Shown: piece after piece, positions 780 through 29,482 of the stretch
Layout: each line of letters begins with the position of its first letter
Position numbering within the stretch: position 1 is the first letter of the stretch
Assembly (NCBI GenBank): GCA_013368375.1
Contig: JAACJP010000028.1
Coordinates: 372,001-436,000 of the forward strand
Length of the DNA: 64,000 nucleotides
Direction of reading: 5' to 3'
Origin: Tricholomella constricta
Lineage: Eukaryota; Basidiomycota; Agaricomycetes; Agaricales; Lyophyllaceae
The notes under the pieces: generated by a model
Told to the model about the DNA's origin: nothing
The model's database searches: none
Seen by the model: only the letters and a program-made list of their open reading frames with translations
Program-made: the position numbers and the translations under genes

Positions 780-1401
780 TACTACAGCCATCGGCCCAGC
801 GTTGACCAAATATGTTGTTCAGCATCGTCACTCTTGGCGTACTGATTGTCTCTTTTGTTGAGCGTTCTTCTTTCGTCAATAGCGCCCTTTATGGTCAGTC
901 CAGAGATGCAGTCGTAGTCCCAGAATGAGTCTCTGCCCCAGAAAAAGATGGCTTCAAGAGAAGGTGCAAGTTGCAAATTCAAGTTGAAGAAGCGCCCGCC
1001 GCCCTCCGCCACCAGCCCCATCACCACGTGATGCCGACGCGTCGCCTTCCAATTCCACTTCCAATTCCAATTGCACCGCGACCAAACCTCTCGGTCAGCT
1101 CGAGCCTCGACTCTCTCAACTCCCACGCCGGAAATGCCTTTAAAAGATACCACCTATGATTTAAAATATCTGAATTACACAGGCTGTAGCTTCCGGTCCA
1201 TCAAGGCAACAGCTACTATCCGTCATGCAACGAAGATATGTGAGTTTCCTTAGTATCGTAGTCATACTGACGAGTAGACAGCGGTTTGGTTGTTTCGAAA
1301 CATTCTACACCCTAGATCGTATAAAAATAACAATACAGGCCTTCGAGTCATCCTCTGGACCCTGCTGTGAATCCCGGGCCTTCCACTCACTTACTTGAAT
1401 C
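780..1401 (+). repeat. Duplicated unit, copy A, 5' part (interrupted)
   Basis: Positions 780-1401 align with 29570-30144. They share the block around the GTTGACCAAA motif, the stretch containing CAATAGCGCCCTTTA, the CACCACGTGATGCCGACGCG block and the CCTCTGGACCCTGCTGTGAA block. The similarity stops exactly at CTTGAATC (1394-1401) and resumes at 27891 on the far side of the large transposon. Many substitutions and small indels separate the copies, so this duplication is old. A spliced start seen in copy B (ATG at 29949) is not preserved here. I cannot name a protein for the unit. Confidence 0.8.
1394..1401. repeat. Left 8-bp target-site duplication (CTTGAATC)
   Basis: CTTGAATC occurs here and again at 27891-27898. 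In the uninterrupted paralogous unit the matching position reads CTTCAATC once (about 30139-30148), followed directly by TCAGCCGGTCGG, which is the sequence seen to the right of 27898. This is the pattern expected for an 8-bp target duplication. Confidence 0.85.
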
Positions 1402-1419
1402 CGGATATGTGCGATGGTC

Positions 1420-1445
1420 CAGGCCTAACAAACACCATAGGCCTG
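1420..1445. repeat. Left terminal hairpin
   Basis: CAGGCCTA (1420-1427) and TAGGCCTG (1438-1445) form a perfect 8-bp stem with a 10-nt loop. TGTCA follows at 1444-1448, overlapping the last two stem bases. The right end has the same arrangement, so this is probably part of the terminal recognition structure. Confidence 0.6.
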
Positions 1446-1589
1446 TCACAGCAACACATGCGGCCCGTCACTCCAAACACAAGTGACCCGTCGATATGCC
1501 AAATTTCTGCCATATTTGTTGTGTTTTATAGATGTTGAGTAGCTTCATTATGCCGAAATTCAGCCATTTTTCTGCATAGTTTATTCTTA

Positions 1590-1803
1590 GGGCGTTGAGT
1601 AACCGCTGAGTAAAATATATAGTGGGTTCCTACCGTATACTGCTGACGGGCTGTTGAGCATTGTTAGAGAGAATATAGCAAAATTCTGCCATATTCTCAA
1701 CATTGTTGCACAAACGTTGAATAAGGCAGTAAATGGTATATTTCAGCAATATTTCTTGTATTGGCTCATATGGTGGAATCTTGCCATACTTGAATTGGGT
1801 GGC
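1590..1803. repeat. Left subterminal inverted block
   Basis: This stretch, including AAGGCAGTAAATGG and CAGCAATATTTCTT, matches the reverse complement of 26463-26623 at roughly 80 percent by eye over its inner half. The motif GTTGAG(T/C) recurs several times in both blocks. The pair lies in inverted orientation inside the two ends of the large element. Confidence 0.7.
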
Positions 1804-1891
1804 GTTTTGGCCAAAAGGTAGATGGAGGCCCTATGCCATTTACACAATGGCCAGATTTCACCAGATATTTTATTTAAATTGAAAAAAACAT

Positions 1892-1968
1892 AACCAGGGT
1901 TCGAACCATAGACTTCACAAATCATTAGCTGAAAAGCATGGACACAAACCACTGAACTACCTTGCCTT
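1892..1968 (-). ncRNA. tRNA-derived, SINE-like Pol III unit
   Basis: On the minus strand a box A (TAGTTCAGTGG, 1949-1959) and a box B (GGTTCGAACC, 1898-1907) lie about 50 nt apart, followed by a TTTTTTT run near 1882-1890 that could end Pol III transcription. The acceptor and T stems do not pair properly, so this is not a functional tRNA. It looks like a tRNA-derived SINE head or a decayed tRNA gene within the transposon. Confidence 0.55.
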
Positions 1969-2079
1969 GTATATAATAGAAGATTATCCACTGTCAATGT
2001 CTACTCCATCTTTTTTATATAGCAAGCCTCCACCGTATTTCTCTTACAGAGCCTCACTAATTCAAATATAGCGGAACCT

Positions 2080-3120
2080 TTCTCATTTCCTTAACTATGG
2101 TAGAAGCTCTCCATATAATGTTGGTTTGCTTGAATATGGCAGAATCCTGCTGTACTTTTTACTTTACTTTAATATAGTAGAACTTCTCCATTTTCTCAAC
2201 CACCTTGTAGCAGAACTTTGCTATATTTCGTGGTTTGTTACATTATGGCAGAATCCCTCCATATTCAGTAGATTAGAAACTATGGCTGAATCTTGCCATA
2301 TCCTGTGGTTTCCTCAGTTATGGCGAAACCTCGCCATATCTTTCAATTTGGTCTGCAATGGCAGAACCTCTCCAAATTTTGTGGTTTCCTCAGTTATGGC
2401 AAACCCTCACAATATCCTTTAGTTTGGTCTGAAATGGCAGAACCTCTCCAGATCTAGTGATTATAGCTGAGTATTTCCATATCTTGCAGTTTGCTCAATT
2501 ATGGCAGAATTTTGCTCTTGTAGTAGAACTTTGCTATATTTCGTGGTTTGTTACATTATGGCAGAATCCCTCCATATTCAGTAGATTAGAAACTATGGCT
2601 GAATCTTGCCATATCCTGTGGTTTCCTCAGTTATGGCAAAACCTCGCCATATCTTTCAATTTGGTCGGCAATGGCAGAACCTCTCCAAATTTTGTGGTTT
2701 CCTCAGTTATGGCAAACCCTCACGATATCCTTTAGTTTGGTCTGAAATGGCAGAACCTCTCCAAATCTAGTGATTATAGCTGAGTATTTCCATATCTTGT
2801 GGTTTGCTCAATTATGGCAGAATTTTGCTGCAATTTGTGGTTTGCTCCAGTATGACAGAGTCTCTCCAAAACTAGTGATTATCGCTGAGTATTTCCATAT
2901 CCTGTGGTTTTCTGAAGTATGGCAGAATCCTGCTGTAACCGTGTCTTGCTCCAGTATGGCAGAACCGCTCCATATTTATAATTAGAAAGTATGGCTGAAT
3001 TCTGCCATATCCTATAGTTTACTTAGATATGGCAAAACCTCTCCATTTGCTTGACTATGGCAGAACACCACTGTATCTGGCGGTTTGAATATGATAGAAC
3101 TTTCCTTTTTTCCTGATATG
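2080..3120 (+). repeat. Left array of degenerate ATGGCAGAA..CCAT repeats
   Basis: More than twenty variants of a unit of roughly 35-40 nt, with a core like TATGGCAGAACCTCTCCATA followed by TGGTTTGCTC, fill this stretch. Each unit is itself semi-palindromic (ATGG..CCAT). A higher-order duplication of about 313 bp (2205-2517 and 2518-2830) is nearly identical. The ORFs here translate to repeated Leu-Trp-Gln-Asn phrases and are not genes. The same core appears on the opposite strand at 26740-27810. Confidence 0.8.
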
Positions 3121-3168
3121 GTTCAACCTCTCTGCATTCACAAACATACATCAACTTCATATTGCAAG

Positions 3169-6100
3169 TCATGTGCCCTTTAGCCGTCGTATCCGTAAAC
3201 GATTCCATACCGAGATAAAAACCTTTGTGTACATTATAGCGTGATCTTGTGCCATGTAGCTGACAGATTTTCTGATCCGCTTGATGCCTCCGTTTCCACA
3301 TTCTGCAGCACTGGAGTTGACTCGGGATAGATGTGGGTCTACCGCCATGTACGTCTCCAAAAAAGCAGCCGGTGCACATTTTTTGTGATCCCTAGCATGG
3401 AAAGCATCAATGCCATATATGCTATGGGCGAAAAATGCAGGCTCCCGTATGAGGCAGTATGGGCCTAGCGCACAAGCAAAATCATAGATGATTCTTTTTG
3501 GCGCAATTTCCCATCGAGTATACATTGCTGAGAACACATCATTTCTGCCCTCACCATTGGGGATGAAATGAAAGCCATAGCAGATGCTATGTGTGCACCA
3601 AGCTGCCATGATACCCCCAGTTAAACGCTTTGCACCATACTGAGCGTAATATTTGGAGCACTTTGCCCCTCGATTATTGCTTGTTTCTTTGCGAACATCA
3701 TGTTGAAGATTGCTGTAAATAGGTCAGTGCCGATTTTGAGGCAGGCTATAGCAGCAACCTGTCTATAATATATACTTTTTGAGAGGTTAATCAATTATAG
3801 AAATAGAATACTAACTTCTCGCCAATCTTTCTCCAAAATTGGCATAGTGTCCAAGCTTGAGGGCGTGGATTGCCCAATTAACCGGTTATAAACCTCCAAG
3901 CCTCGTTGATATAGCCATTGGCAAAGCCCAAGCACAGCATCTGGGTATGGTAGCCCATGAAACCGAAGGACTTCGAGAAGGACTGGACAATAAATCATCT
4001 TGGTTGCATTATCCTCTGAAGGATTGTCGTTAAATGTTTTCAGCATTTCTAATGCTGATTTGTTCAACATTTGGAGTGTGGATTCCTCAGCAGTGATCTA
4101 AAATCTGGTCAGAAATATTATACATGGAAAGTGACAAGACTACCTGGATAAATAACCTCTTGTAAACCAAGGGGGGAATAATCTGTGCGGTTACTGCAGG
4201 CAAACCGAAGTGCAGATCAAACAGTTCTTGCAGATGAGGATTGATAGACCCAAGATCAGCAAGAACTTCAGGAATTGAAGTGAGCCTTTCGATTTCTGCT
4301 TTTTGTGCAGCCTCCGATTTTGCTTTACGGCTACCACCTCCATCACCTTCATCGTCTGAGTCTTCCTCTACATCCGCAGGTGTCGACACTTTGGCCCCAG
4401 TAATTATTTTCCGAAGCCGTCTTCGAAGCTTTGCATCTGGTAATGCCTGCTGTTTCCATAGATAATGGTTATTTCGGATCGGTGACAGGACATCAGATAT
4501 GGTGGGTGGCCGCAATGAGGGCAGCACATGTTTCTTGTGAAATCCTACAGAAACACCGTCCCAGATTATATCTTCTGGCATTGGACCACATTGAGGACAG
4601 CGCATATCATCTCGGAAATCCTGAAGGTCCACATATGAAAACCAAGCAGCCCGAAAGACTTGCTCAGAAACAAAAGAATCACCAGTAGGATATCTGCGAG
4701 AAACTACGGTGATCCAAGCCGTGAAGGGAGTTTCGGAAGTGGTGTAGAAGCTGGTGTAGTCGTCAAGGAGCTCGTGTGTGAAGAGGATGCGGTTGTTGAA
4801 GTTGAAAATACCAAGGTTTCGTAGATCCGGGCCAACAAATCGATTTGTACGGCCTGAACAGGATAAACAGGCCTGTAGTTCAATTTGGCTATGCATCGCA
4901 TGTGTCAGGCCATAAACGACGCACTGCCTTTCAAACCGTGGGCGGGAAATATCATAGTATGACCTTATCGGGCCACATCGACAGGTCGATGACCGGTCAA
5001 GCTCTAGAAGTTTTGGAACATCACAAAGAGGCAGAGGGCGGAGATAATGGGGAATATCAGAGTCCAATTCTGCCCAAGCTGGTGGTACAATGGGCAAATA
5101 TGAAATTGCACCATTTCGGTATGACCTTTGAGGTCTGACGGTCATAGCTTTGAAATGAGATGAGCAAAATAGATGTAGTTTCATCATGATTAACTTACAA
5201 GAAACGTCAGGAGCAGCGTCGTCTATTCCGTCCAGATCTTGCTCCCTATGTTCCTGCTGTAGAAGCTTTGCCAGCATGCTTTGTGCGTTTGATATATGGA
5301 TGCAATGATGAGCCAAATTCTTCTGGCATTTCTGGCATTTCCATAAACCACTGCCATCATTGCCACCCTCATGCTGAACAAATGTGCGGCTTTTTACCGT
5401 TTCCCCAAGAACGCCAACAGAGAATAGGTTCACAAATTTTTCTCCATCACTTGGCATACGGGAGAATAGAACCGTCGATATCTCTCTGTCTGTATCACCA
5501 ATGAAACTTATGGGACATTACATAGTTTTTTTTGGACGTACATGTGAGGGCGCTGTCATGTGGTGGAAATTCAATGTTTCCATACTCCAGCATAAACCGA
5601 TAATGAACACAAGCTATGCCATCACGACCGGACCTGCAGTAGCAGCCAATTGAAAGCCCTGCACCAATTTTGGTCCTCTCTAAATGCGACCAAGTATGCT
5701 TTTTTCTCCACACATCATCAGCTATTCTAAATATAAATGTCATAACACATACCGTTCCTGACCTGCCATTCCATCCTTGTACCACAAAGATATCCTTATA
5801 TATCTGCACCATGCCTATCCCTTCTGATTGGACAAGATCCACGTAAGCCATGTAGTCTTCGTCTTTATCGTTGGATATCCCAAGATCAGCAGGTGTGGGA
5901 GAACCATCCATTCGAGCAAGACTGTTGTCTCCAAATGGTTCTGCTAGCTCTGTGTAAATTTCAAGAGCTGAATCTCTTATACTGGCAAATTTTCTCTTGC
6001 GCTTTCCAGAGTTGAGAACCACTCTCCGACGCTTCTGAGGTGAAGATGATTGAAGTGAATCATTAGCCCAGTTGGGTTTCGATTCTAGACGAGGAGCTGT

Positions 6101-6301
6101 GAGCTGAATCTGTGCCCTTATTGGAGCAGGAAGAGTGATTTCTGGAGCCTTTCGATCAGGCTTTGGAAGTTGTATGGACATGAAATGATCCGATGAAGTT
6201 GTGCGGAGGAGGATACAGCCCGCATTTGCCATCGCTACTTTCGGCACCATCTTGACATTTGGAATTCTAGAGCCATTATGGAGACCTTCTGCTATATTCA
6301 T
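3169..6301 (-). CDS. KDZ transposase with N-terminal Cys clusters
   Basis: This is a multi-exon gene encoding a KDZ-superfamily DNA transposase with the cysteine clusters (CxC type) typical of fungal KDZ proteins. The N-terminal exons (6301-5525 and 5473-4133) carry Cys/His pairs such as CYCRSGRDGIACVH, KCQKCQ, CLSCSG and MRCPQC. They contain probable in-frame introns, for example 51 nt near 5150-5200 and 54 nt near 5700-5755. The next exon starts near 4097, after an intron with acceptor TTTTAG. The catalytic part (about 3169-3670) contains IYDFACALGPYC, IDAFHARDHKKC and NSSAAECGNGG, giving candidate Asp, Asp and Glu acidic residues in the usual KDZ order. The last exon ends at the TGA at 3169. 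I see no stop that cannot be placed in an intron, so the gene may be intact. It is divergent from 6356, with only 54 bp between start codons. Confidence 0.85.
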
Positions 6302-6355
6302 ACATTTACCAGCTACAACGTAATCATTTTCATTGTGTCTGTCACATTCAATACC

Positions 6356-7735
6356 ATGCCACCATCACCACGAAAGTCTCCTCGGAAGTCTATTCCATCA
6401 CGCTGGAAGGCAGATATCATGCCTAAGCAAGGAAATGCCAGTGCTGTAGCTGGCCTCTCCAAACGACGCAAATGCTTAAAATGCCCAGGTGAACAGTGGA
6501 GAAATGAATGCGCTCATTCTGCAAAATTTAGGAAGGCGCAGAAAGATGTACGCCAGCTTTCTTCTTTATTGATACAAAATAACTAATGATAGGTTAAGGC
6601 ATTGGAAGCTGAAGCCAACGGCACTACACCAGTTCAGCCTAAGTCTACGGACCCCACTTTAGATCCCGACGAGACTCTAATCACTTCGACTTCGAGACAT
6701 GACACACCTAAAGTTCACGTTCAGTCCAGTAACCGAGCATCTCCAACTATGCTTGACAATGCTCGACATAGTCAGCTGATTTTTCCTTCCCCTGCCCCAC
6801 ATCCATTCACACCAACTTCCCGTACCTCCGACGTTATGATTTGTCACAATCCCAAGCGACACTCCAACTCCAATATTGACCCTAGGTTGCTTTCAGAGCC
6901 CATGACTGGCTTATCTTTTGATTCCCGTTTGCTTCATTCTGCTGCATCTGAGTCTCCCGACGTTTTCACATCTCTTCTCCCAACTTCGCCATTGGAAAGC
7001 TCGCACCAGCTGCACGATGATCAATCTCTACCTACATCTTCCCCAATGCCTTCTTCACCGTTCTCAATACGTGGGCCAAGAATCCGAGCGACTACAAAAT
7101 ATAAAGTGCATGGCATTGTGGAAGGAGCAATGAAGGGAGCTAAACCGTATGGTACGTTATTTCACTTACTTTCTGAGGTCTTTTTCAAAGGTGTGGCCTC
7201 TATAGAAATTATTCGACAGCGAGCTCTACGGCCTGAACTGGAGTCCGCATCTCGAGCATCAGCTCGCTTCCGAGCTCAAATTACTGACATCATTGAAAGA
7301 GTACGTTACTAAAGATATATTTTGATCTCTCTGACAGATACTGGATTCCAGGTTGAGAGACTAGGGATAGAAACCAATAGCTGGCTTTTTATTGCTGGTC
7401 AGCATCCGCACGCCGCCTCAAGCAACTCATTCTACCACTATGAATCTCCTCGTCTTCTGGATGATGCTCACAAAGCAACCGGCCAAATTGTAAATGATTT
7501 CAGCTCTATGATCGAAGCCCTTATCATTATGAACAAGGAGGAGGTAATTGAATTGAACCAGCGGTATGCACGGATGGAAAAGGAGAAAAGTAAGGTGTTG
7601 GAGGAAAATAAAAAGGCCCACCAAGAACTGGCGGCACAAGCTGACCAGGTAGCGCTACTCTCTGGCCTTATAGAGCAGATCAAGTCTGGAGCACTAAGGC
7701 CCCAGGACATCACTCTGGAGGTGCCACGTAATTAG
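6356..7735 (+). CDS. Coiled-coil protein beside the KDZ transposase
   Basis: Three exons join cleanly: 6356-6547, 6593-7300 and 7352-7735 (introns 45 and 51 nt), giving 428 residues. The N-terminus is basic and SP/SPRK-rich. It is followed by a Cys/His group (KCLKCPGEQWRNECAH, about residues 39-54), a long Ser/Pro-rich low-complexity middle, and a charged heptad-like C-terminus (about residues 345-410) that should form a coiled coil. I do not recognise a named family. Its divergent placement against the transposase suggests shared transcription and a role as an accessory DNA-binding or scaffolding protein of the element; that is inference. Confidence 0.7.
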
Positions 7736-7898
7736 TCCAATCTTTAGCATTTTACGTCTGTTTTTGATTTTCCAATTTACGCACACCTACAATCACAATG
7801 TCCATGTCTGGTGTACATGGTAAAATATTGTAACTTGAATGCAACCTGGTCTATATCTTTCTGATGTGTATTTGATACTGAAAACTAGGGTAATTAAT

Positions 7899-9953
7899 CT
7901 ACTGGGCTGGCTTAGCTGTCTTGTCGGTTCTATGGAATGCCCTGCGCCAATCAGCCATCACCGTCTCTGCTGTAGAGAACATTGCCACCCCCTCTGCCCA
8001 CCGCTCACCATCTGGAAGGTCAAAGGTCAAGCGTGCCTCCCTTGATTCTCGATTGTTACCCTTAATACCAAGCTCATCAAGATAAGACTCAATGCTACGG
8101 AATCCATATGTCACCCATCTGAAAAGCCCCCCTGCTGCATACTGGGTAAAGGACATCCTTGTCTCTGAGGATGAAATGGGTGTGTTGCCGTGTTCAATGG
8201 AGCCAGAAGGGATGAGTGCGGTAGAGCCAGGGGGGAATTGTATAACAAGCTTGAGAGTGTAAAGGATAAGATGCCCGCCTTGGACGTAGTCATAATCTCC
8301 AAGTGCCGTGAGGGCACAGAGGCCAAAGGGAAGGTTATCAAAGTCAACGTGGCGCACAGTGCAGGTGCGGGGGCCACAGTTGAAGGTGCAGGCTGGAAAG
8401 ATGCTGTTTGTGAAGTTATGCTGAAGACCGGGGTGGAAGGTGAAGAGCGCCGACATGGTGTCCATATAGTAACGGAAAAGAGTGGGGGCGAACGTAGAGA
8501 AAGCACCTGATAGACGAGATGAGTTACTAAAATTGAACATGGGAGAAAACATACTAGACTGAAAGCCAGCAATCCGACGGATATTTGGGTCAGCAAGGAG
8601 GTATTTTAACATCCGTTGCTTTGCAGCAGGATGTTGTATGTTTCCGGGTACCTGGTCCAATTTGAGTAAGCAATCTACCGGAGGCTAATGATATATGACG
8701 CACCTTCTGCCCTCCACCAAAGGAAACACCCGATACTACGGCAGTAAACATACCCCTTCGGTGCTCCTTATCTTTGGGGGTCAAGCCCTTGGCAGCATCA
8801 ACCTGGCAGCGGGCATTATCCATAGTGGCAGCGGCACCCTTCACTACATCCTCCCAGCTTGGGTCATCTGGACGTCCAACGAGCCCAACGAAGGCACGCC
8901 CATCCTGGTCGGTAAGGTAGATGGGCTTGCTATATCCATGTCCTTTATCAGTCAAGTACAATGTCAATGACAAGGCTAGCTAGCACTTACATCCCATCCC
9001 ACGCAATGAGCTTATATCCATTCTGGAGGAGCTCCGTTAACGTGTCATCTGTCTTGGAGCGCCTTACATTGACCCCAAGCCACGAACCATGCTTGGTATG
9101 TGAAAGGGAGCTGAGGTGGCAGCGTGCAGGGATTAGGGAACGAAAGACTGCCTCCTTGGCCATTGGAGCACAGCGAGGACGGCGATTGAATGGATGAGGG
9201 TCCTGAGCAGCGGCCATCCTAATCTGCTTCCGGCGTCGCCTATGATAGTCCTTACGACGGGCCTTAGCACCACCATCAAACATACCAGTGACGTGGTGCC
9301 GGCGCTCCTCCACAGCCTGCAGTTTGAGGCGGCCCTCTTCCGTCGAACGCAACAGATGGCGGGCGGTGGGCATAGGTGCAAGAGGGGCAATAGGGTGGAG
9401 GGGGCTAGGTGCACTGCCCACGTCACCGCTAATCTGAGGGGGGCCATCGACAAGGTCGACCCCCTCTGCGTCATCTGAATAGCAGAGATATGAAATATTG
9501 TTAGAATAGTTTATGAATCAAGGGCATATCACGTACCTCCGTCGTGCTCGAGGCGTGCTGGATCCTCACTTGCTCGAAGAAGGAGAGTCTTGAGGCTTTC
9601 CGTCACCTCGATGATTGCAGTGGGGGCCGTCACCTCAACCACTGATGTTGGTGTGGCGACTGTGGGCTCAGCGGCATGCTTCTATAATATCATAATTTTT
9701 TTGAGCACTGCAGAGTAACCGAGTGCTGAGGACATACCGAGCTGCCGACGGCCTCCATCGCCATCGTAGACTTTAGCACACCAGCCGTGGGCGTGGCGGA
9801 GTGGTGGCCCTTTGCAGGGCGCACCTACAGGTCAAATTTGAGTATTGAGAAAGCAGCTAGAGGTGAAGAACATACCTGGCAGCCCATGGACATAATTTCT
9901 GTCATCACGAAGGACGGCGCAGTGGGTGGAGGATTGGCGAGTTGGCGGTTCAT
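7899..9953 (-). CDS. TET/JBP-like 2-oxoglutarate Fe(II) dioxygenase
   Basis: The exons are 9953-9876, 9824-9738, 9681-9537, 9474-8991, 8929-8704, 8651-8555 and 8506-7899. All frames close to 574 residues. The introns are 48-62 nt, and the last one is in frame. The C-terminal half is the fungal TET/JBP-type double-stranded beta-helix. The iron ligands H-x-D are about residues 425-427 (VRHVDFDN), the distal His about 478 (SIEHGN), and the 2OG-binding Arg about 489 (ETRMSFTQY). Fungal TET/JBP enzymes of this type oxidise methylated bases in DNA and are known to be expanded in basidiomycetes next to KDZ transposons. The N-terminal region carries a basic RRKDYHRRRRKQ stretch and an acidic linker. 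All metal and cofactor residues are present, so I expect activity, but the substrate (5mC or 6mA) cannot be read from sequence. Confidence 0.85.
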
Positions 9954-10859
9954 AGTAGCGCGTGCCTTCGGAGACATATTTGAGTAATGACACGGCTGCG
10001 AAAGGTTTGAGGACGTACCAGATTGCCCACTGTCCCAAAAATACTGTTAAACATACGATCTGTGGGTTTAGGTCAGCAGATGCATGGGCGGGTTTAATGA
10101 GGTGGGCGCGTGGGCGGCGTTGCGGTCAGGGGCAGGGGCGGTGCAGGTCCTTGGGTTGGACCCACATGCCAGTTGCAGATTGCAACAATTCCCGTGGGTG
10201 GGGATCGTCGCGGTGAGGACGGCGGTTTGCAACAATTCCCATGGGTAGGGATCGTCACGGCTCACGCATGCACGGTGGAGGCGCCATGGGTCGGCATCTG
10301 CACACCGGTCGTGCTGGTCTCATCATGGGGTGCAACGCCGAGGAGAATTGGGGGAGATGGAGGGGAGGGGGACTCACTGGCTGGGTGAAATGTGGGTGCC
10401 GAATTTGGAGCACTGGCGGGGCGGTCGCCCCAGATATAACCCAGGCATCCGGACGCCCAGATGGACCAGATTGCACATGAAATTAGCGCCCAGACTTGAA
10501 ATAAGAAAATAAGAAATACGCACCACCATGCGAGCAACCCGACACGAGGTCCCCATCAACTTAAGATAGGCATGTGATAGACACGCCAAATCAACGCTGC
10601 CTAACCCTAACCCTAAGTAATGAGGACGGCCGCCGTGGACGTTGGCAATCTCGAGCTCGAGAACGGTGGGCTGGCGGGAACCGTCGCTGTTGGTGAAGGT
10701 TCCAGCACCCCCCTGGACCCTTTGATCGATGTTGAGATGGAGTGTTTCTAACAATAAAATTAATATATGCGTACCTCCGTGAACCTCAGTGAGGCCAGTG
10801 AGCTGGCGAAAGAGTGGGCGTAGACGTGGATGCCGTGATGGGTGAGGACAGACAGCGGA
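9954..10859 (-). other. Possible decayed gene upstream of the dioxygenase
   Basis: On the minus strand, frames around 10800-10550 read protein-like fragments (for example LTGLTEVHG and QPTVLELEIANVHGGRPHY), with a possible donor GTACGC near 10774. I could not build a full gene, and the upstream reading runs into the minisatellite. The CCCTAA-like repeat at 10603-10617 lies inside it. It could be a pseudogene, a repeat-expanded exon or chance. Confidence 0.25.
10603..10617. repeat. Short interstitial telomere-like repeat
   Basis: TAACCCTAACCCTAA gives about two and a half copies of CCCTAA, the complement of the TTAGGG telomere unit used by most filamentous fungi. It sits in the middle of the transposon, with no other telomeric sequence around it. 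Confidence 0.6.
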
Positions 10860-12130: not shown

Positions 12131-12309
12131 TTGATCTGCGCACAATTACAGTCAGTGATGTGGAAAGAGGGGCAGGGGACTCACTGGGGCGAAGTCTGAG
12201 CCGTACGCGTAGGGGGTGAGATTAGGATGGATGGGCAGGACGGCAAGTGACGTACTGTGCGGCTCTCCCCAACCTGGGGTCTGCCCTTTACTGACTTCCC
12301 CTCTTCTTG

Positions 12310-19162: not shown

Positions 19163-19175
19163 GAAGAAGACATTT
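19163..19175. repeat. LINE target-site duplication, 3' side
   Basis: GAAGAAGACATTT is repeated at 25651-25663. The last three T merge with the T run of the poly(A) tail, so the true length is 11-13 bp. Removing one copy and the element restores the protease reading frame. Confidence 0.9.
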
Positions 19176-19577: not shown

Positions 19578-22500
19578 TTAGATATGGTGTAGGAGGGGAT
19601 TAGGGCGCGCGGCGGGTTGCCGGGCTCGGGTGTTGATTTCGTGGGCGCGTTCTGCGGCGAGGCAGCGCGCCGACTGGGCTGATGTTTTAAAGCGCTTCGT
19701 CGCGTGGACGAATCTAAGGAGATGCTTCAGGGCATCGGGGCTCGTCAATAAGTATGAGATGGACTCAGCTTTTCGTTTGAGGTTTCTTCGGAGGTGGAGA
19801 TGACGTTCGTGTTGGTAGCGCGGACATATCAAGAGGTAGTGCCGAACGGTTTCCACCGTGATGCCAAGGCAGTGTGGGCATGAGGGCGACTCAGCGCGGT
19901 GGATGCGGAATAGATGCTGGTTGAGTGGGGAGTGGCCGGTGCGCAATTGGGCAACTGTGGCGGAGCGGCGGCAATCGAGGTACTCGACGAGCTTCAGGAA
20001 TTTCTTCGATGGCAGAGATTTGTCGATGGCGTTGATGGCCGAGAAGCGGGGGGATTTCTTCCACCGTTTCTTCCATGTTGCGCGGAGGGCGGTGAGGTGT
20101 TCCTGTCGGAGGGCGGGTATGCTGGCTGGCAGGGGCTTCCGTCTGAGGTAGACTGGGAGGAGGTTAGTTGAGCTGGTGGTGCCTTGTGCCGCAGTTTTAG
20201 CAAGTTCGTCGGCTCGTTCGTTCGGGTCGAAGTCGACGTGTCCAGGGGTCCAGTGTATCTGGATGTCTATAACTCTGCGGCGACGGTCAGTCCAAGGGTT
20301 ACCTCGGCGCTTAGCGGCACTGCGAGCATCAGCGCGGGCGAGACGGTCTTGTGTGACGTGTAATTTCTCGGCGGCGGAGTGGACGTGGTCGAGGAGGTAG
20401 TGTCCCGGGTGCGGGCGTTGGTTGTTGAGGGCCTTGATGGTAGCTTGACTGTCGCTGCCGATGGCCGTCGTATCATCTAGGCTGCGTGTGAGTTTCGTCA
20501 GTAAGTGAAGGCCGAGCGTAAGCCCGACTATTTCAGCTTCGTATACTGTGTGTTTGGTGGTGGGGCCGAGGTGGTAGCGAAGTGACGCCCTCTCGGCCTT
20601 GTCGACGTATAGGACTGCTGAGGCTCCGATGCCTCCTTCGAAGCCGGAGCCGTCGCAATAAACAGAGACCGGGGCTAGATCATGGATGCGGTTAGCTTCC
20701 CTGAGCGCCGAGGCTTTGTTGTCTTCGATGTGGGTGCTGAACGATGGGGCATAGTTTGGGCGCCGTCTTGTGGGTAGCACTGTCTCCACCGTCCGGGGGT
20801 CGACCCCAGTGGTGAAGAACAGGTTGTGGAGAGGGGATCGGTGGCGCTTGACGTAGCGCTGGGCAGCGTTACGGACTGGGCCATGCAGGGGGTGGGAATC
20901 TGGGAGGGAGGCTAGCCGCACCGCGGCTCGTTGTAGGATTTTGTGGTATAGTAGATCTACGGGCAGAAGGTTAGTGTGGACATCCAGCACGTCACCTGCT
21001 GTGGTACTGAGGGAGCCGGTGACGAGCTTTGCAGCGCGTCGCTGGACTGGAATGAGCTTTCGAGTGACGGCAATAGAGCCGAGTCGCTTTTTGCCGCTTG
21101 GAGAGTTGTGAATTCCTGTATACCACACGTCAGCAGCGTATGTGAGGGCAGGGACTGCTACAGTGTTGTAGAGCTGTCGGATTCGATGCGGGGGCATGCC
21201 CCCGGATAACTTGGAGAGGCGCGCGACTTGAAAGGACCACCAGGTCGAGCTGGCGATAACTTTCTGAAAGTGGGCATTCCAGCGGAGCTTGGGGTCGAAG
21301 ACGACCCCCAGGTACTTGTATGTCAGTGCTGTGTCGACTATCTGGTGTGTATAGGAGCCGTCGGGGTTGCGGCGGGTGAGCTTGAGGTCGGGCGGGATGA
21401 CATCATGGTGGGAGCGCGGAAAGTTCATTAGGGCGAGTTTTGAGAGCTCGAACGGCGAGTTGTGGGATAGCGACCAGTCGAAACCACCTCCAGGGCGTTC
21501 GACCATGTCGGCAATGGTGTTGTGGGCCTCGCGGAGCGTCTTCGCGACTGCGAGGTACATAGAGTCATCGACAAATCCGACTGACGTCTCTGACCTGCTG
21601 CCGGTAGCTGCTGTGTGGATTAGTGGGGCGTTATAGAACGCATAGAAGAGCATGGACAAGGGACATCCTTGGGTGGTCCCATTGCGGATGTCGATCGGCT
21701 CTGATAGGAAATCATCGAATTTCAGACAGGTGCTGCGCTGGGTTAGCATCCGTTCAGTGAGTTTTACATAACATCGCGGGGCACCGCGTTCTCGCATGTT
21801 GTGGACGAGCCGTTCACGGACAGTATTGGGGAACGCCCCTTGGACGTCCAGGAACAGCGCCACTGCAACATTACCTGCCCGCCATGCGGCCTTGATTTTG
21901 TGGGTGACAAGGTGCATGGCGTCGGTCGTGTTGCGCCCAGGACGGCCTCCGAACTGGCCTGCCGGGAACATGGAATGGGTTTCTGCGAGGTGGGAAAGGT
22001 CAGCGGCGACCAGCGTCGAGAGGAGCTTCCCGATAGTGTTTAGGAGTCCAATGGGGCGGTAGGCCTTGGCTACGTTGTAGGCCGGCTTACCCGGCTTGCG
22101 GAGTACAAGCGTCGTCGAGACGAGCCAGCTGCTGTGGTATACATCAAGTTCGAGGACAGCGCGGAAGATGAAAAATAAATGATCGACCAGGACCTCCGCG
22201 CAGCGTTTCAGCACCACATTCGGGATCCCGTCAGGACCCGGCGCTTTATGTGGTTTGAGCTGGCTGATGGCTGCGAGGATGCGTGCGCGAGTAAAATATT
22301 TGATCCCAGGTAGGGGACAGGGATACGCAGAGAGGGGTATGGAAGAGGAGGTGGGGGGGGGTGGAAAGAACGACTCAGCTAGGGCTGCGGCCTTTTCCCT
22401 ATTGGTGGAGGCGATCTTTGGGGCGCCATCCACCGTGGTCCTGAGGTCGGGAACCCTGTCGCTGGAGAAGTCAGAAGGCTCATTAACTGCATATTTGTTA

Positions 22501-23681
22501 GCGGTATAGATCTGCCGGGCATCGATGTTTTCGAGCCAGTCGACCCAGTGTTCGCGCCGAGACTGCATGATCTTGTCTGCCATGGCCTGGGACAGGCGTT
22601 TGTGTTCGGCTTTGGAAGGATGGTCGCGTACGTCCCTGAATTTGTATGCCTCGTTGCTGGCATGGCTCCTTGCGTGTTTGAGCTCCGTGAGCTCGGAGCA
22701 CCACCAGCGTTTGGAAAACGGGCAGGGTTTCTTCATGGGGACGATGTCGTTCGTCGCGATGACCTCCTGGATAATAGCAGTCAGCGTTGAGACTTTAGTG
22801 TCGAACTCATCTTTCGACGTGATGCGGCCTGCGGGGGATCGGAGGAGGAGCTTTTCAGCTAGCACATCACTGAACTTCGGCCAGTCAGCGCAGTGAAAGT
22901 TCCTGGATGGGGGGGAGGAGGTGCGGGCGACGGGGAGTTCAACCTCTGTGATGATGGGCAGGTGGTCAGTGATGGGTGGGCGTAGCCCTGGGTCGACGTC
23001 GCAGCTGATGATGGGGTCAGTAGGCCCGTGGGAGCGCCAGACGTTGTCGGGTCGCGTCCAGCGGTCACCGGCAGTCTGTAGGGTGTGACGGGCAGGGGGC
23101 AGTGCCAGGTCCATGTCGTAGTTCTGGAGGAGGTCGAGAAGGGGTTGCACGGCGTCGTCGGAGGAGTTGAGGTGGCGGTTGTCGAAGCTCTCCCAAAGCG
23201 GGTGGTGTCTGTTGAAGTCACCGAGCCAGAGCATGTGATCGCGGATAGAAGGGCGGGCAGCGTGGATGGAGGTGGCGAGGTATGCGGCGAGGTCTGTGAG
23301 GCTGTCATTATGTGTACAGTCATTATAAACATTAAATAGTGAAAGATGGCCAAAGGCGCCATTAAAGCGAACAGCTGTAATGTCAGTACTGGGTATATCA
23401 AGAAAAGTGAGGGCGTCCGAGGCGATGTTGGAGTTGATGAGGAGGATTGAGCGGGAGCGGGTGCTCCCATCGCGGCGATGGTGAGAGGGGTAGCGGACGG
23501 TCCAGAAAGGCGAGGCCTTTGTGTTGCCGAGTCGGTCTAGGTAGGGCTCCTGGAGAGCAATGACGTCCCAGTCCTCCGGTCTAGCGGAGTTAAGTACAGC
23601 CGCCTGGGCGACGTCCGACTTGCGGACGTTCTGCTGCCAGATGCGCAGTTTACTCGGGGCTTTTGGCGGTCGTCTATTCAT
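19578..23681 (-). CDS. LINE ORF2: endonuclease, reverse transcriptase, RNase H
   Basis: 1,367 residues without a stop. The N-terminus is an apurinic-type endonuclease (LRIWQQNVRKS, ALQEPYLD, LWLGDFNRHH, ITDHLPI). The reverse transcriptase follows, with YRPIGLLN, LDVQGAFPNT, GTTQGCPLS and the active-site box GFVDDSMY near residue 700 (Val replaces the more usual Ala of FADD). RNase H has YCDGSGFEGG (about 1004), YEAEIVGL, SDSQA and WTPGHVDFDPNERADELA (about 1143). A C-terminal CPHC..H..C zinc-like motif is near 1270-1285. The start codon overlaps the ORF1 stop in ATGA, which suggests translation by stop-restart coupling. The protein copies its own RNA at a nicked target. Confidence 0.95.
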   Translation of the reverse strand: MNRRPPKAPSKLRIWQQNVRKSDVAQAAVLNSARPEDWDVIALQEPYLDRLGNTKASPFWTVRYPSHHRRDGSTRSRSILLINSNIASDALTFLDIPSTDITAVRFNGAFGHLSLFNVYNDCTHNDSLTDLAAYLATSIHAARPSIRDHMLWLGDFNRHHPLWESFDNRHLNSSDDAVQPLLDLLQNYDMDLALPPARHTLQTAGDRWTRPDNVWRSHGPTDPIISCDVDPGLRPPITDHLPIITEVELPVARTSSPPSRNFHCADWPKFSDVLAEKLLLRSPAGRITSKDEFDTKVSTLTAIIQEVIATNDIVPMKKPCPFSKRWWCSELTELKHARSHASNEAYKFRDVRDHPSKAEHKRLSQAMADKIMQSRREHWVDWLENIDARQIYTANKYAVNEPSDFSSDRVPDLRTTVDGAPKIASTNREKAAALAESFFPPPPTSSSIPLSAYPCPLPGIKYFTRARILAAISQLKPHKAPGPDGIPNVVLKRCAEVLVDHLFFIFRAVLELDVYHSSWLVSTTLVLRKPGKPAYNVAKAYRPIGLLNTIGKLLSTLVAADLSHLAETHSMFPAGQFGGRPGRNTTDAMHLVTHKIKAAWRAGNVAVALFLDVQGAFPNTVRERLVHNMRERGAPRCYVKLTERMLTQRSTCLKFDDFLSEPIDIRNGTTQGCPLSMLFYAFYNAPLIHTAATGSRSETSVGFVDDSMYLAVAKTLREAHNTIADMVERPGGGFDWSLSHNSPFELSKLALMNFPRSHHDVIPPDLKLTRRNPDGSYTHQIVDTALTYKYLGVVFDPKLRWNAHFQKVIASSTWWSFQVARLSKLSGGMPPHRIRQLYNTVAVPALTYAADVWYTGIHNSPSGKKRLGSIAVTRKLIPVQRRAAKLVTGSLSTTAGDVLDVHTNLLPVDLLYHKILQRAAVRLASLPDSHPLHGPVRNAAQRYVKRHRSPLHNLFFTTGVDPRTVETVLPTRRRPNYAPSFSTHIEDNKASALREANRIHDLAPVSVYCDGSGFEGGIGASAVLYVDKAERASLRYHLGPTTKHTVYEAEIVGLTLGLHLLTKLTRSLDDTTAIGSDSQATIKALNNQRPHPGHYLLDHVHSAAEKLHVTQDRLARADARSAAKRRGNPWTDRRRRVIDIQIHWTPGHVDFDPNERADELAKTAAQGTTSSTNLLPVYLRRKPLPASIPALRQEHLTALRATWKKRWKKSPRFSAINAIDKSLPSKKFLKLVEYLDCRRSATVAQLRTGHSPLNQHLFRIHRAESPSCPHCLGITVETVRHYLLICPRYQHERHLHLRRNLKRKAESISYLLTSPDALKHLLRFVHATKRFKTSAQSARCLAAERAHEINTRARQPAARPNPLLHHI

Positions 23682-25495
23682 TGGCTAGGGCTGGGGGTGG
23701 AGTTCGCACGTCGGCGGCGACCTTTCTGCGATCCTACTGCTGTGGGGACGACAAATTCGTCCAGAGTGCCCTGGCGACGAGGTCGCTGGGCTGGCTCTGC
23801 AGCAGGATGCGCGAGGGCAGCCTGTGGGGCAGGTTTCGGCGGTAGCCCATGTTCGACTCGTGGACGGTGGATGGGTGTGACGTTCGACAGCTTGGTGGGT
23901 GCCGCGGTCCAAGTCCAGGCTTCCCCGGTGGGGAAGAATGGCATACTGTTCTCTGGGAAGCGAGTCTCCAGGTCATCACAGAGTTTCTTGAACGTTGGGC
24001 AGCTGCGGGAGGAACTCGAGTGGGAAGAGTCTGTGCCGCAAGACACGCACCGGGGTGTGAAGTTGGTTGGGCAACCGGTGGTGGGGTGCTCCGCGCTTGC
24101 GCATGAGGCACACCGCTCAGGGCTCTTGCAGGTGTTGCGGACGTGGCCGTATAATTGGCACTTGTTGCAGCGGATTGGTTCCCGTAGGTCCTTCCGTACC
24201 GCCACGACGTGGCCTTTGACGAATATACGGCCCTGTAGGAGTCTGTTAGCATCCTCGGCATTCGCGCATACCACCTTGAGGGAGGCGACGTTCTGCTTTG
24301 GAGATCGGCGGTCGATTCGCTTGAGCCACGTTGCGGACACGATGGACTTCGGCGAAAGGTCGTTGTCGAATTCGATGCTGTCGCGGTGTTCCTCGAGCGA
24401 GGGGTCGAAGATACCACCGCAGGGCACAAATCTAAAAATGAGGTTGTGAGCCTTCGCCTTTACCTTGGCTGATGACCCCAAGTGAGGCTTCAGGAGGCCA
24501 AGGTGGGCGTCGTTGGCGTATTGGCGGAATCGGTGGGCGGATTCCGCGGAGTCCATCTCGAAGAGGTATGCGCCTCGATCGAGCGACGATATCCCTCGAA
24601 TAAGGGTCTTCGTCCCGGGTTCGGGCGTGGAATCACCTTCATCGGTGATGTACCCGTTGGCCGCCAACGAGGTGTCGATGCCCGCGAGGTCCTTGTTCAT
24701 CGCTTCGCGGAGGAGGTAATTGCCAGTGGGGGAGCGGTCGGTGGGGGCCAGGTCGTCAACGGGGTTGGCCTCGATGAGAATGGTCCGGGCGGCGCGCAGC
24801 AGGCGTTGTTGCAGTCGGGTGTGTTGATCAGGGGCCGAGGGGTTGAATGTGGTGGTGGGGAGCTGAGGGGGCGGTGAGGGGCGGGGTTCAGTACCGGCGA
24901 CCGAAGCCCAGGTGGGCTGGGAGGGAGGGGGCGGTGCGATGGAGGTGGACATCTTGGCAGCTAGGAGGTTCAGGGAGGTTGTCACATCGGCCAGTTGGGT
25001 AGAGACAGTCTTGAGAGCTAAGGTTGTCTCCGCCTGTTGGGTGTCAGTGGCAGAGGAGAAGGCAGCAGATGATGTTAGCTTATCGGTGGCGGACTCCAGG
25101 CGGCTGAGCGTCTTGGCCGCTACCGCGTCGGCTAATGCATCGGAGATGCTATCCGTGATGTCGTCCTCGAGGAGAAAGGCTACGGCCAGGACGGCGTGTT
25201 TCGCATCCGTCCTCGATTCAGTCGACTTGTTGGTGAAGTTCAGAGCCGCGGTCATCAGCACTCGGACAAGCTTCGCGCGGTCGTATGTGTCGCCAGAGAG
25301 GACCCAACCCTTCAGGTCGAGCCAACGTCGGGCTTCGCGGGCGGTTTTCACCGGACCGTTCTCGCCAATCATCAGGGCGCTGATGTCGGCTCGGGTTTGC
25401 AGGTGACGTGACGGAACAGGGGTCCCAGCCAGGTTGGGACCGCTGGCATTCGGTTTCGGCGGTGGCCTGGCGTTGAAAGCCATGCCGGGGAGCAT
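23678..25495 (-). CDS. LINE ORF1: gag-like RNA-binding protein
   Basis: 605 residues. The C-terminal third has zinc-knuckle repeats (CNKCQLYGHVRNTC, CASCASAEHPTTGC, then a further Cys/His group), as in Tad/I-type ORF1 proteins that coat the element RNA. The middle (about residues 270-440) has an RRM-like esterase-free layout rich in charged residues. The last codons run PSPSQ, and the TGA overlaps the ORF2 ATG by four bases. The frame is intact. Confidence 0.9.
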   Translation of the reverse strand: MLPGMAFNARPPPKPNASGPNLAGTPVPSRHLQTRADISALMIGENGPVKTAREARRWLDLKGWVLSGDTYDRAKLVRVLMTAALNFTNKSTESRTDAKHAVLAVAFLLEDDITDSISDALADAVAAKTLSRLESATDKLTSSAAFSSATDTQQAETTLALKTVSTQLADVTTSLNLLAAKMSTSIAPPPPSQPTWASVAGTEPRPSPPPQLPTTTFNPSAPDQHTRLQQRLLRAARTILIEANPVDDLAPTDRSPTGNYLLREAMNKDLAGIDTSLAANGYITDEGDSTPEPGTKTLIRGISSLDRGAYLFEMDSAESAHRFRQYANDAHLGLLKPHLGSSAKVKAKAHNLIFRFVPCGGIFDPSLEEHRDSIEFDNDLSPKSIVSATWLKRIDRRSPKQNVASLKVVCANAEDANRLLQGRIFVKGHVVAVRKDLREPIRCNKCQLYGHVRNTCKSPERCASCASAEHPTTGCPTNFTPRCVSCGTDSSHSSSSRSCPTFKKLCDDLETRFPENSMPFFPTGEAWTWTAAPTKLSNVTPIHRPRVEHGLPPKPAPQAALAHPAAEPAQRPRRQGTLDEFVVPTAVGSQKGRRRRANSTPSPSQ

Positions 25496-25650
25496 TCTGG
25501 GAGAGAGAGAGGCAGTAGGAGTAGGTAGGAAGGTTGGTATAGCGAAAAGCCGGGGTAAGAGAGGGAATTAGGAAAGGAAATAGCGTACTCGAGCAGCGGC
25601 GACCAGGACCCCGAAAGGGATGATGGTAGTCAGAGATCAAGAAGCGTCCC

Positions 25651-25663
25651 GAAGAAGACATTT
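25651..25663. repeat. LINE target-site duplication, 5' side
   Basis: This is the second copy of GAAGAAGACATTT. The protease reading frame continues directly to its right on the plus coordinates (upstream in the gene). Confidence 0.9.
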
Positions 25664-26462
25664 GACCTGCCGGTATGAGACTAGATTGCCATGAGAAAGC
25701 AAATCAAAGATTTGAGCCTGTAGCAATTCAAAGCGACGCCGTTTGATATTGTCTTCCATGTCATCTTCAAGTTTGAAGGTCATCAAAAGGACATGAAAGT
25801 CTTTTTCCAGGCCTTGAACTTCTCCGTCAGAAGTCAATTCTAGTTCAGAAGAGGATAAGGCTGCTGGCGTCTTTGAGGCTGAAGAAGCGACCAAAGACTC
25901 TGAACTTGATTGAGAAACCAAGTGTGGGGCTGCCTTCTTGAAGCCTGGCGTAGAATCTGAGTTTTGAACTGGTACATCTGCATTGGAGACGGCTAGTCTA
26001 CGGGCATCAAATCTAAGAATTTTTTGAATGATATTTAGACGCAACAAAGCCATACCTCTTGTTGAGTGCATTGGCCTTTTTCACCAAGTACCGTGCATGA
26101 TTATATGCACGAGCTTCTTCTGCACTATATAACAAAAATATGTCATATAGTTTGTGAACGTAGTGGTATACTTACGTCTTAAATTTTGAAAAGAAGCGTC
26201 GGCTCCTCTCAGTACCTGACATAGCCATGGCCTTGGAGGACTGTTCTTTGAAATTTTTAGCATGAAAGGATTTTGCAGCTCTTGAAGAAGGACGTGCCAC
26301 CATAAGGCATCTGAATAGAGTCAGAATAGAGAGTAGCAGGAGTTATAGTTGTTTTTTTATGAATTTCATAAAATGACCGTTGAATAGGTATAGACTGGGT
26401 ATGTTATGACTAAGCAACCAGTAAATGGCAAAGATTCTCCATCGTCTTTTTAGCTGGAAAGC

Positions 26463-26623
26463 TGTGCAATTCAAATATGGCAAGATTGCACCATATGATT
26501 TGATAATAAGAAATATTGCTGGAATATGCCATATACTGCCTTACTCAACAGTAATATGGCAAGCTCCTTCTATATTTCTCAGAATGCTCAACATATTTTT
26601 CCTCAACCGCTACTCAACGTTCA
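26463..26623. repeat. Right subterminal inverted block
   Basis: The reverse complement reads GTTGAGTAAGGCAGTATATGG and CAGCAATATTTCTTA, closely matching 1590-1803. It sits inside the right array, whereas the left partner sits outside the left array, so the order of blocks differs at the two ends. Confidence 0.7.
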
Positions 26624-26739
26624 AGAATAAATATATCAAGAATGTCAATTTTTTGCACAATGTTTTCGCAACATTTCCTTTGCAGATTTTTGCCCATTCA
26701 CCATGTTACTTTTCTCTGAAGGACTTCAGTGGTGCTGTG

Positions 26740-27810
26740 CAATATGGTAGACTGTTGCCAAAATTACTTACATAATCTTTGGCGGTTCATTAAGTTTGGC
26801 AGAATCTTGTCATTCTACAATTAAACGTTGAGTAATATGAGCCGTTGAGTATTAAATAACAATACAGAGGAGTTCTTTTCTTCAAAGAGATATGGTGTAT
26901 TTTTGCCAATCTCTAATGGTATACAAATGACATTTACGGTGGAATAATACCAAATTGATATTAGGAAAGTAATACAGAGGAAAGATACCAAAATTCTGCA
27001 GAATGGCAAGGTTCCGCCAAATGTAAAAAACCGCCAAAGATTGTGTAAAAAACTCAGCAACAGTCTGCCATATCTCATACAGCACAAAATGGCAAACTCT
27101 TGCCAAAGTGATTGTGTCAATGAATATAGTGACACTCTGCCATATTGTGCAACACAGCTGATGGCTTCAATATGGTAGAATACAGCCAAAGTGATACAAA
27201 AAAGTGATATGGTGAGAAGGTGCCAAAATTCTGCAGAATGGCAAGGTTCTGCCAAAGTTGAGTGGAGGAAATAATTCAGCAAAGAACCGCCAAAGATTGT
27301 GTAAGTAAATTTGGCAACAGACTGCCATATGGCACATAATGGCAACATTCTGCCAAAGTTGAGTTGAGAGAGAACTATGGCGAGAACCTGCCAAAGGTTG
27401 TGAATGAGTACAGTAACAATCGTCATATTGAGCAACGCTGACCAAATCCTTCAATATGGTAGAATACAGCCAAAGCAACACATAAAAGGTTATATAGTAG
27501 GGGGCACCAAAATTCTGCAGAATGGCAAGATTCTGCCAAAGTTGAGTAGAAAGAACAAAACAGCAAAGTATGGCAGGATACAGCCAAAATAATACAGAAT
27601 GGATGATGGAGGTTGGCCGCCAAAGTCCTGCAGAATGGCAAGGTTTTGCCAAAGTTGAGTGGAGGGAAGAATATGGTGGGAAACTGCCAATGGTTGTCTA
27701 TGTAAATATGGTGACATTCTGCCAATTCTGTGCATAGGTACAGAGTGAACTAACTGATCACTGTAGGGTGTGAAGAAGTATGGCAGCTGTCCTCCATATT
27801 GGCATGCCAT
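26740..27810 (-). repeat. Right array of degenerate TGGCAGAA repeats (inverted)
   Basis: Read on the minus strand, units such as CAACTTTGGCAGAACCTTGCC recur many times with related spacers, the same core as the plus strand of 2080-3120. The minus-strand ORFs repeat the Leu-Trp-Gln-Asn-Leu-Ala-Ile phrase that the left array shows on the plus strand, which proves the opposite orientation. No real gene here. Confidence 0.8.
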
Positions 27811-27826
27811 ATCTGTTTTGCTGACA

Positions 27827-27852
27827 GGCCGGCTGTGCTACATCAGCCGGCC
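27827..27852. repeat. Right terminal hairpin
   Basis: GGCCGGCTG and CAGCCGGCC form a perfect 9-bp stem with an 8-nt loop. TGACA lies directly on its inner side, mirroring TGTCA at the left end. It lies 38 nt from the right boundary. Confidence 0.6.
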
Positions 27853-27890
27853 GAAGGTGTTTGGTTGACATGCTTGGTATTACTTGCCCC

Positions 27891-29482
27891 CTTGAATCTC
27901 AGCCGGTCGGATGACCACCCACGAGGCTGCAGGCGGTGCAACTGCTCAGAAATGGAAGGCAACAAACGAGGCAAGCTGTCGATTGCTCTGATGTTTCTAG
28001 AGAGTTCTGATGATATTCCCATTCGACTATATGGTCCGTGCAGAATGATACGCCACACAAGGATCTATAAAATCCGCCAGTTTGAGGGCCAGATTCACAT
28101 CTTAAGGCCTCGTCCCACTGCATTCTACTTCGTACCTCCCTCCTTCGAGGCAATGCTACTAGTGAGCCGTGATTGCTCATGTCTCATGCACGACCTTCCG
28201 TACTGAGCGTTGGGCCCACCACCGCTGGTCGCTGACGCCACTGGCGCACAAAACTCTTGATTACTGGCCTATAGACCAAACGTATGCCTCATCTATTCGG
28301 TTGCATCAATTTAACATCGCCTCTCTTCAGGAACGAGGACGGTCCCGCCAAGGTTGACTTGCGTAAGGTAGGTGTTACCTTCTCCGTTTCACCTGGGCTC
28401 ACGGAGCTCATCCCTAGAGCGGTTGTCTACACTCATGCGCCCTCCAGGACGACGTACTCTCTTATGCGCGCGTCCTTAGAAAAGTCGACCTATTTCCACA
28501 CCACGCTATCGTCAGACCTCCACCGGGGGCTCCCCCTCACAAGACCCGCATACACGCAGGTTCCCAACCCAAGGTTATGAATCACTATGCACAGCCCAGA
28601 AGGTGGGGCGGGCAGCCAGGTTTGTCTGTCCCCACCCGAAGAGCGTCGCGCAAGCGGCGTGAGGAGCAGCAGCAGGTTAAAACCCCTCACTGATCCGGGT
28701 GCATACGCGTGCGAGCCGGCCGGCATCCGTGAAGGAGCGTCGGGAGGGCATAATGTTCCCTCTTGCCTCCGCCCAAGTGGTAGGATACCCTGGCGAGCGC
28801 GGTATGCGCGTGCATATGAGAATTCGTAAGATGGGCCCTGGGTTCTTGTGCTGGAACGGTTGGGAAGGGGAGCCTGGCTCGAGGTTTCGTCCATAATGTA
28901 CGTCCGTACTGCTCGTTGCTTTCGGAGGTGCTAATGTTTGAGCCTTTTAGTACCCATGCACCGGGTCCTGATGGCGCCGCGCAGCTTCCGATGTGTTCGT
29001 TGGATGATTTGTCCGAGGGCAATTCACTCCCGTCACGTCTATGGGGCAGCGCTTGGCTTTTTCTCCCCCGCAGAGCCCAAGCTTCTATCAACGGTCTTAT
29101 ATGCCCCGTAACACACATCCGTTCTGCCATAGGGACGAAATTTCTTGATAGTCATGCCTGCCGCTGCCGTCTGGGCAAACATTCGCGGCCTCCCTCATCT
29201 TTCTTTTCTCTCTGTGAGTACGAAATATCTTGCAAACTTTTCGCTGAGTGACTGATATACACCCAGAATTTATTCATAATATTACCAGTTTTGCATAGAC
29301 ACCATCGCAAAAAATACATCCATGGACATCACAACACGCTCAGACTGCATCTTCATCACAATTCCTTCATATATTTTAGACACACCGGTTTAACACGCCA
29401 AAGACACTCACTGCATAAACCGTACATAGCATAGTTTCGGAATAACTGTGCCACACACAATCAGTAGTAACGACAGTAATGA
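27891..29482 (+). repeat. Duplicated unit, copy A, 3' part
   Basis: It starts with the right target duplication CTTGAATC, then matches copy B from TCAGCCGGTCGGATGACC onward to about 29482. Differences from copy B in the long plus-strand frames are nearly all amino-acid changing, and those frames are broken in one copy or the other, so I do not call a protein. One inner block (28573-28865) is almost identical to copy B, while its flanks are far more diverged. Confidence 0.75.

Follow-up and report, generated by a model that had tools for sequence, protein, structure and literature searches.

We identified a large DNA transposon in a 64,000-bp stretch of the genome of Tricholomella constricta, a mushroom-forming fungus of the Lyophyllaceae (contig JAACJP010000028.1, here C28, positions 372001-436000), which we call the window and whose coordinates are used unless another contig is named. 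The element occupies positions 1402-27890 and is a transposon present twice in the genome with identical ends, here as copy A and on contig C39 as copy B. We read it, with a probability of about 0.8, as a cut-and-paste CxC4/KDZ DNA transposon of 20-22 kb, with a repeat-binding transposase and an anti-silencing cargo. Direct observation covers the two copies and their identical ends, the 8-bp (perhaps 7-bp) duplications beside them, the empty sites in paralogous units and, close to one of the ends, a transposase gene. The copies and their target sites are as follows (strand given where one applies):

783-1401: left portion of the interrupted target unit, 78.7% over 633 columns to 29570-30148
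1394-1401: left target-site duplication of copy A, CTTGAATC
1402-27890: copy A, 26,489 bp; 20,001 bp minus a long interspersed nuclear element (LINE) and one LINE duplication
27891-27898: right target-site duplication of copy A, CTTGAATC
27891-29520: right portion of the interrupted target unit, 83.7% over 1689 columns to 30141-31794
29570-31794: unsplit tandem unit, with the paralogous empty site CTTCAATC at 30141-30148
C39:40667-62669, minus strand: copy B, 22,003 bp, with a perfect 8-bp repeat CCATTGCT on either side

The initial annotation had described the left unit of a tandem duplication as split by 26,489 bp flanked by CTTGAATC, and the right unit as uninterrupted near 30139-30148. Both statements agree with the coordinates, since 26,489 bp separate the 8-mers at 1394-1401 and 27891-27898, and the intact unit reads through at 30141-30148. 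When the flanks of copy A were joined with a single 8-mer and aligned to this unit, there was no gap at the site, where CTTCAATC differs by one mismatch. A third unit (C28:360002-362220, 82%) also spans the insertion site (the junction itself not aligned). The empty site of copy A is paralogous, not allelic: a search with the unit gave nine matches, eight on C28 and one of 61 bp on C52, so that no second haplotype was seen and an allelic empty site was rejected. The duplication is 8 bp long, 7 bp being the less likely option, which arises because the 8-mer begins with C in both copies and the right end of the element is a run of C; we estimate the odds of a chance C at both sites at about 1 in 16.

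The second copy was found by searching the whole assembly (44.1 Mb, 118 contigs). The query 1394-1700 matched two places, and its match on C39 starts exactly at element base 1402. The query 27500-27890 gave nine matches in two places, of which the one on C39 stops exactly at base 27890. The target of copy B likewise belongs to a local repeat family, and the neighbouring member reads through the site with one mismatch. The element is thus mobile, having two insertions with the same ends. The initial annotation had held that both ends could be fixed without outside data; the insertion site can indeed be read from the window alone, whereas the proof of mobility needed the copy elsewhere. It is hardly credible that a host segment is merely flanked by a chance 8-bp repeat. 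The window does contain a third CTTGAATC, at 42641, but copy B has the same ends elsewhere, its own duplication and its own empty site, and refutes this explanation unless it is an assembly artefact. Both insertions sit in local repeat families (window 783-31794; C39:37994-40668 and 62670-64987), and two sites are too few to tell a target preference from this shared location. The frames of the copy A target that we tested had no Pfam match.

The size of the element and its terminal regions depend on the following features:

1505-3065: left subterminal repeat array, 11 exact TATGGCAGAA/TTCTGCCATA plus tandem repeats
19163-25663, minus strand: nested LINE, not cargo; body 19176-25650, with a 13-bp duplication GAAGAAGACATTT at 19163-19175 and 25651-25663
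26421-27724: right subterminal repeats, related short motifs ATATGGCA and CTGCCATA, no exact TATGGCAGAA

The element size of 26.5 kb given in the initial annotation had to be rejected, since 6.5 kb of it is the LINE; the element measures 20.0 kb in copy A and 22.0 kb in copy B. The LINE body is absent from copy B, where GAAGAAGACATTT is single. Its left end is a poly(T) run, that is, poly(A) on the coding strand, and the 1368-aa protein that it encodes combines endonuclease, reverse transcriptase and RNase H domains. The genome has 43 matches to it including itself, and three others cover nearly the full length at 72-73%. It is an unrelated retrotransposon that entered copy A after the transposon had inserted, and its frames were rejected as transposon cargo. 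Lengths and cargo lists taken from a single copy can thus take in nested retrotransposons.

Both copies begin with CGGATATG and end with TTGCCCC. A long terminal inverted repeat (TIR) was rejected, as only a weak inner inverted repeat was seen, starting at about base 18 and with a score matched by 1 of 300 shuffles. Apart from single occurrences at 15531 and, beyond the element, at 29122, the exact TATGGCAGAA 10-mer is confined to the left end; the right end is dense only in shorter related motifs. A Starship-like or Helitron origin was also rejected: no such domain was found in the 20 frames scanned, where split exons could escape detection, and structure-match lists cannot exclude folds.

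Apart from the LINE, the interior of copy A contains the following:

3169-6301, minus strand: CxC4/KDZ transposase gene of several exons, with an in-frame stop in the last exon; N-terminal exons uncertain
6356-7735, plus strand: open reading frame (ORF) 2, orphan coiled-coil-like protein, 427-aa model from copy B
7899-9517, minus strand: TET/JBP-like dioxygenase gene, PF12851 match; N-terminus uncertain
10526-12705: part mostly without counterpart in copy B, minisatellites at 10857-11893
13702-14292, plus strand: small open frame that may belong to a gene, also retained by copy B
15639-17555, plus strand: ORF555 (555 aa), orphan gene, frame shifted in copy A by a 32-bp deletion
18008-25993, minus strand: Ulp1-like (C48) protease gene in pieces 18008-18214, 18378-18572, 18636-18905, 18927-19184 and 25643-25993, split by the LINE in copy A

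The KDZ-type transposase named in the initial annotation is supported by CxC4 and KDZ profile matches. Its CxC4 domain (PF18717) scores 154.2 bits against a cut-off of 26.9, the homologue P0068 reaches 28.1 bits for KDZ in the same region, and the D/D/E positions are conserved. By these profiles, the protein has both the KDZ domain and the associated cysteine cluster of a KDZ transposon. Among the best 120 of its 224 relatives, the top three share 49-55% and come from Lyophyllum, Arthromyces and Tephrocybe, all Lyophyllaceae. A tree built from 29 chosen rows groups the element into a clade of six Lyophyllaceae rows (100/99), within which its place is weakly supported (90/56). In addition, the modelled core of a transposase homologue resembles an IS256-type transposase such as the bacterial ISCth4 (PDB 6xg8, 6xgx), a likeness of predicted fold and not membership, with 10-11% identity and large extra domains.

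The dioxygenase, which had been named as a TET/JBP dioxygenase, is supported as TET/JBP-like. It keeps the HxD...H and Arg motifs, and for related proteins of its type the PF12851 score rises to 31.7 bits. The PE-type replacement of HxD by HxE is absent, both copies having HVD, and in place of the AG-type residues (Asp at CcTET 337, Gly or Ser at 331) it has Cys and Asn, positions that were read by eye against one CcTET stretch. Its relatives in the genome amount to 42 matches at 39 places after merging and, apart from copy B, share 32-57% identity. Of the 39 places, 14 have a CxC2 match no more than 10 kb away; a CxC4 match lies that close to three (A, B and one on C16) and a KDZ match to 16 (54 KDZ matches used). 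On C16, the CxC4 and dioxygenase matches are 8.6 kb apart. The CxC2-KDZ elements of this genome carry the same dioxygenase type at 32-49% identity, with CxC2 instead of CxC4 and, where the two are linked, mostly 1.2-3.5 kb between dioxygenase and cysteine cluster; related dioxygenases occur in CxC2-type and CxC4-type carriers of one genome. Three dioxygenase matches on C2 (1342775, 1351457 and 1360139) have equal scores and a spacing of 8,682 bp, forming a tandem array. Four further single-frame TET/JBP genes above the Pfam cut-off (L018-L021, at C6:995473, C39:264029, C17:814288 and C10:65237) include one, L018, that matches CcTET (E 1.6e-8) with Ser and Asp at positions 331 and 337; among the CxC2, CxC4 and KDZ matches used, none comes within 15 kb of any of the four.

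The Ulp1-like protease and unknown genes of the initial annotation are also present. The copy B model of the protease scores 42.8 bits for the C48 catalytic domain (PF02902, cut-off 20.7) and has HW, LDSW and QHNGNDCG stretches, which places the putative protease in Ulp1/Peptidase_C48. It has 13 matches in the genome, nine of them in copies A and B and four being distant pieces (C51:83669-84450 and C20:36068-36846), with TET/JBP matches on the same contigs at distances of 14 and 24 kb. ORF2 and ORF555 were found only in copies A and B within this genome, and a single homologue of each was detected, both in Lyophyllum atratum: P0122 for ORF2 (36%) and P0121 for ORF555 (46% over 45% of the query, 7991 best candidates scored). 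The contigs of P0121 and of the transposase P0006 are both 1,060,539 bp long, and those of P0122 and of the transposases P0017 and P0064 are all 2,139,371 bp. These matching sizes suggest that the same element is present in L. atratum.

The two copies were compared in 500-bp blocks. Divergence is 0.2-1.8% over 1402-9410, except for one block of 5.0%, 5-21% over 9411-10525, 6-13% over 12706-15580, 0-4% over 15581-19175 and 0.9-5.8% over 25651-27890. In the middle, 2.2 kb of copy A stand opposite 4.3 kb of mostly unmatched copy B (C39:49192-53511), three frames of which had no Pfam match, one of them with a short kinase-like stretch at noise level (E 0.42). An exchange of their middle parts may have made the copies mosaic. 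Among 395 aligned transitions between them, 142 are of the CpG to TpG/CpA form, and observed/expected CpG is 0.70-0.72 in the element, compared with 0.98 for window 32-64 kb and 1.04 for the LINE, a pattern that methylation of the element would be expected to leave. Ratios of nonsynonymous to synonymous change (dN/dS) between the copies, rough values with 0-13 silent changes per exon, are 0.13 for the main transposase exon, 0.45 for its N-terminal exon, 0.23 for the dioxygenase core, 0.34 and 0.09 for ORF2, 0.48 and 0.12 for ORF555 and 0.58 for the small ORF. The last transposase exon has no differences in 184 codons, and three C48 pieces have no silent change.

Several observations weigh against a cut-and-paste CxC4/KDZ transposon with an anti-silencing cargo. 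The transposase frame appears broken in both copies, by different lesions: in copy A, an in-frame stop interrupts the last exon where copy B and P0001 have a sense codon, and copy B has a 2-bp deletion in the penultimate exon and one further stop, perhaps intronic, in the N-terminal stretch. The intactness implied by the initial annotation is not supported, the Ulp1-like gene and ORF555 of copy A being damaged as well; the tested exons of the dioxygenase and ORF2 are open in both copies. Neither copy looks autonomous now, although sequencing error is possible. The KDZ domain (PF18758) scores 18.2 bits, below its cut-off of 26.6, and Foldseek alone gave none of 155 transposase matches at E 0.001. 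No true TIR was found, as the outermost bases do not pair. Two of the five other CxC4 loci, examined over 14 kb each, gave transposase matches alone, at 31%. For the dioxygenase, PF12851 (Tet_JBP) scores 18.7 bits against a cut-off of 34.9, the best match among PDB sequences was CcTET at E 0.55 with no link to a solved TET, the predicted fold of the exon alone has a pLDDT of 31.9, and the N-terminal exon has a dN/dS of 0.97. The anti-silencing roles of the cargo are putative.

These points bear on two other explanations. It is improbable that the element is, or always was, a non-autonomous passenger moved by another KDZ transposase of the genome. The two broken frames would fit such a history, as would the 157 KDZ-domain matches and five further CxC4 loci, but the codons of the main transposase exon were constrained. 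Moreover, the other five CxC4 genes form a separate clade in the tree (two of them with under half of the columns filled), their transposases share 29-36% identity with that of the element over the parts compared, and comparison of the element ends with two CxC4 loci and three short CxC4 pieces gave no convincing match. That the accessory genes are passive passengers with no role for the element is doubtful too. The middles of copies A and B differ greatly, two genes are damaged in copy A, and dN/dS is 0.58 in the small ORF and 0.97 in the N-terminal dioxygenase exon; against this, low values were obtained for the core of the dioxygenase, for ORF2 and for the final exon of ORF555, and the species that has homologues of both orphan genes, L. 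atratum, also has the closest transposases.

Under the preferred reading of a cut-and-paste CxC4/KDZ transposon, the transposase, with an RNase H-like DD...E core, would bind the repeats near both ends, excise the element and insert it at cuts staggered by 8 bp. The TET/JBP-like dioxygenase might oxidise methylated bases on the element DNA and so ease silencing, the C48 protease could act on proteins of silencing or repair by removing SUMO or a related tag, and the products of both orphan genes may be accessory factors. After insertion, a LINE entered the C48 gene of copy A, and both copies appear to have lost their transposase frames by separate mutations, so that either could now be moved only by another transposase.

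The name KDZ reportedly comes from a 2014 PNAS paper. TET-carrying KDZ transposons are thought to counter host methylation. TET+ Kyakuja and TET+ Zisupton DNA transposons are known in Agaricomycetes and, like our element, combine a KDZ transposase with a TET/JBP-type dioxygenase and a short target-site duplication (PMC12730594). TET+ Kyakuja has 7-bp duplications, CA..TG ends, no TIR and an AG-type TET with Asp at CcTET 337, whereas the element here has CGG..CCC ends, a duplication for which 8 bp fits better in both copies than the possible 7 bp, and Cys at that position (PMC12730594). Since TET+ Kyakuja also lacks TIRs, their absence is no bar to the wider KDZ group, and the main text on these two groups mentions neither a protease nor Ulp1 (PMC12730594). 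According to PMC12810828, KDZ1-KDZ3 of Cryptococcus neoformans share a KDZ transposase with a cysteine cluster and mostly 8-bp (4-8 bp) duplications, but are 9-11 kb long with CxC1 and TIRs of 139-241 bp, compared with 20-22 kb, CxC4 and no long TIR here. The intact KDZ transposons of Pleurotus are reported to be preceded by CxC2 in every case (PMC7641404). By the features compared, our family fits the KDZ kind and not TET+ Kyakuja.

The initial annotation had called the exact cargo set and size apparently undescribed. TET-carrying KDZ transposons are in fact published (PMC12730594, as above), which leaves as new only this particular family with the genes it carries. As far as the open-access literature was searched, the new features are a CxC4-KDZ carrier with a dioxygenase gene, a dioxygenase that by its named residues appears to fit neither published Agaricomycete type, a C48 protease in such an element, and two orphan genes whose sole detected homologues are in L. 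atratum. Open-access searches found no paper joining Zisupton and Ulp1, none on a TET-carrying transposon in a Lyophyllum genome, and none joining 'TET JBP', transposon and Coprinopsis. More speculatively, and we think this unlikely as a whole, there may be a Lyophyllaceae lineage of large CxC4-KDZ transposons with a whole anti-silencing kit that keeps the element expressed. In this kit, the dioxygenase would stand apart from the three published types (AG, PE and the rust-fungus PU type) and, lacking the Asp on which CcTET depends for 5-methylcytosine, might act on a different mark, for instance N6-methyladenine; it would work together with a SUMO-directed protease and with both orphan proteins, which would be dedicated to the element. 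For testing a role against host methylation, the family has ends known to the base, an empty paralogous site for each of its two insertions and genes that are in part constrained.

Beside the element, the window holds a frame resembling a glycosylphosphatidylinositol (GPI)-ethanolamine-phosphate transferase and argonaute exons (39920-42565 and 58894-61119), which are host genes.

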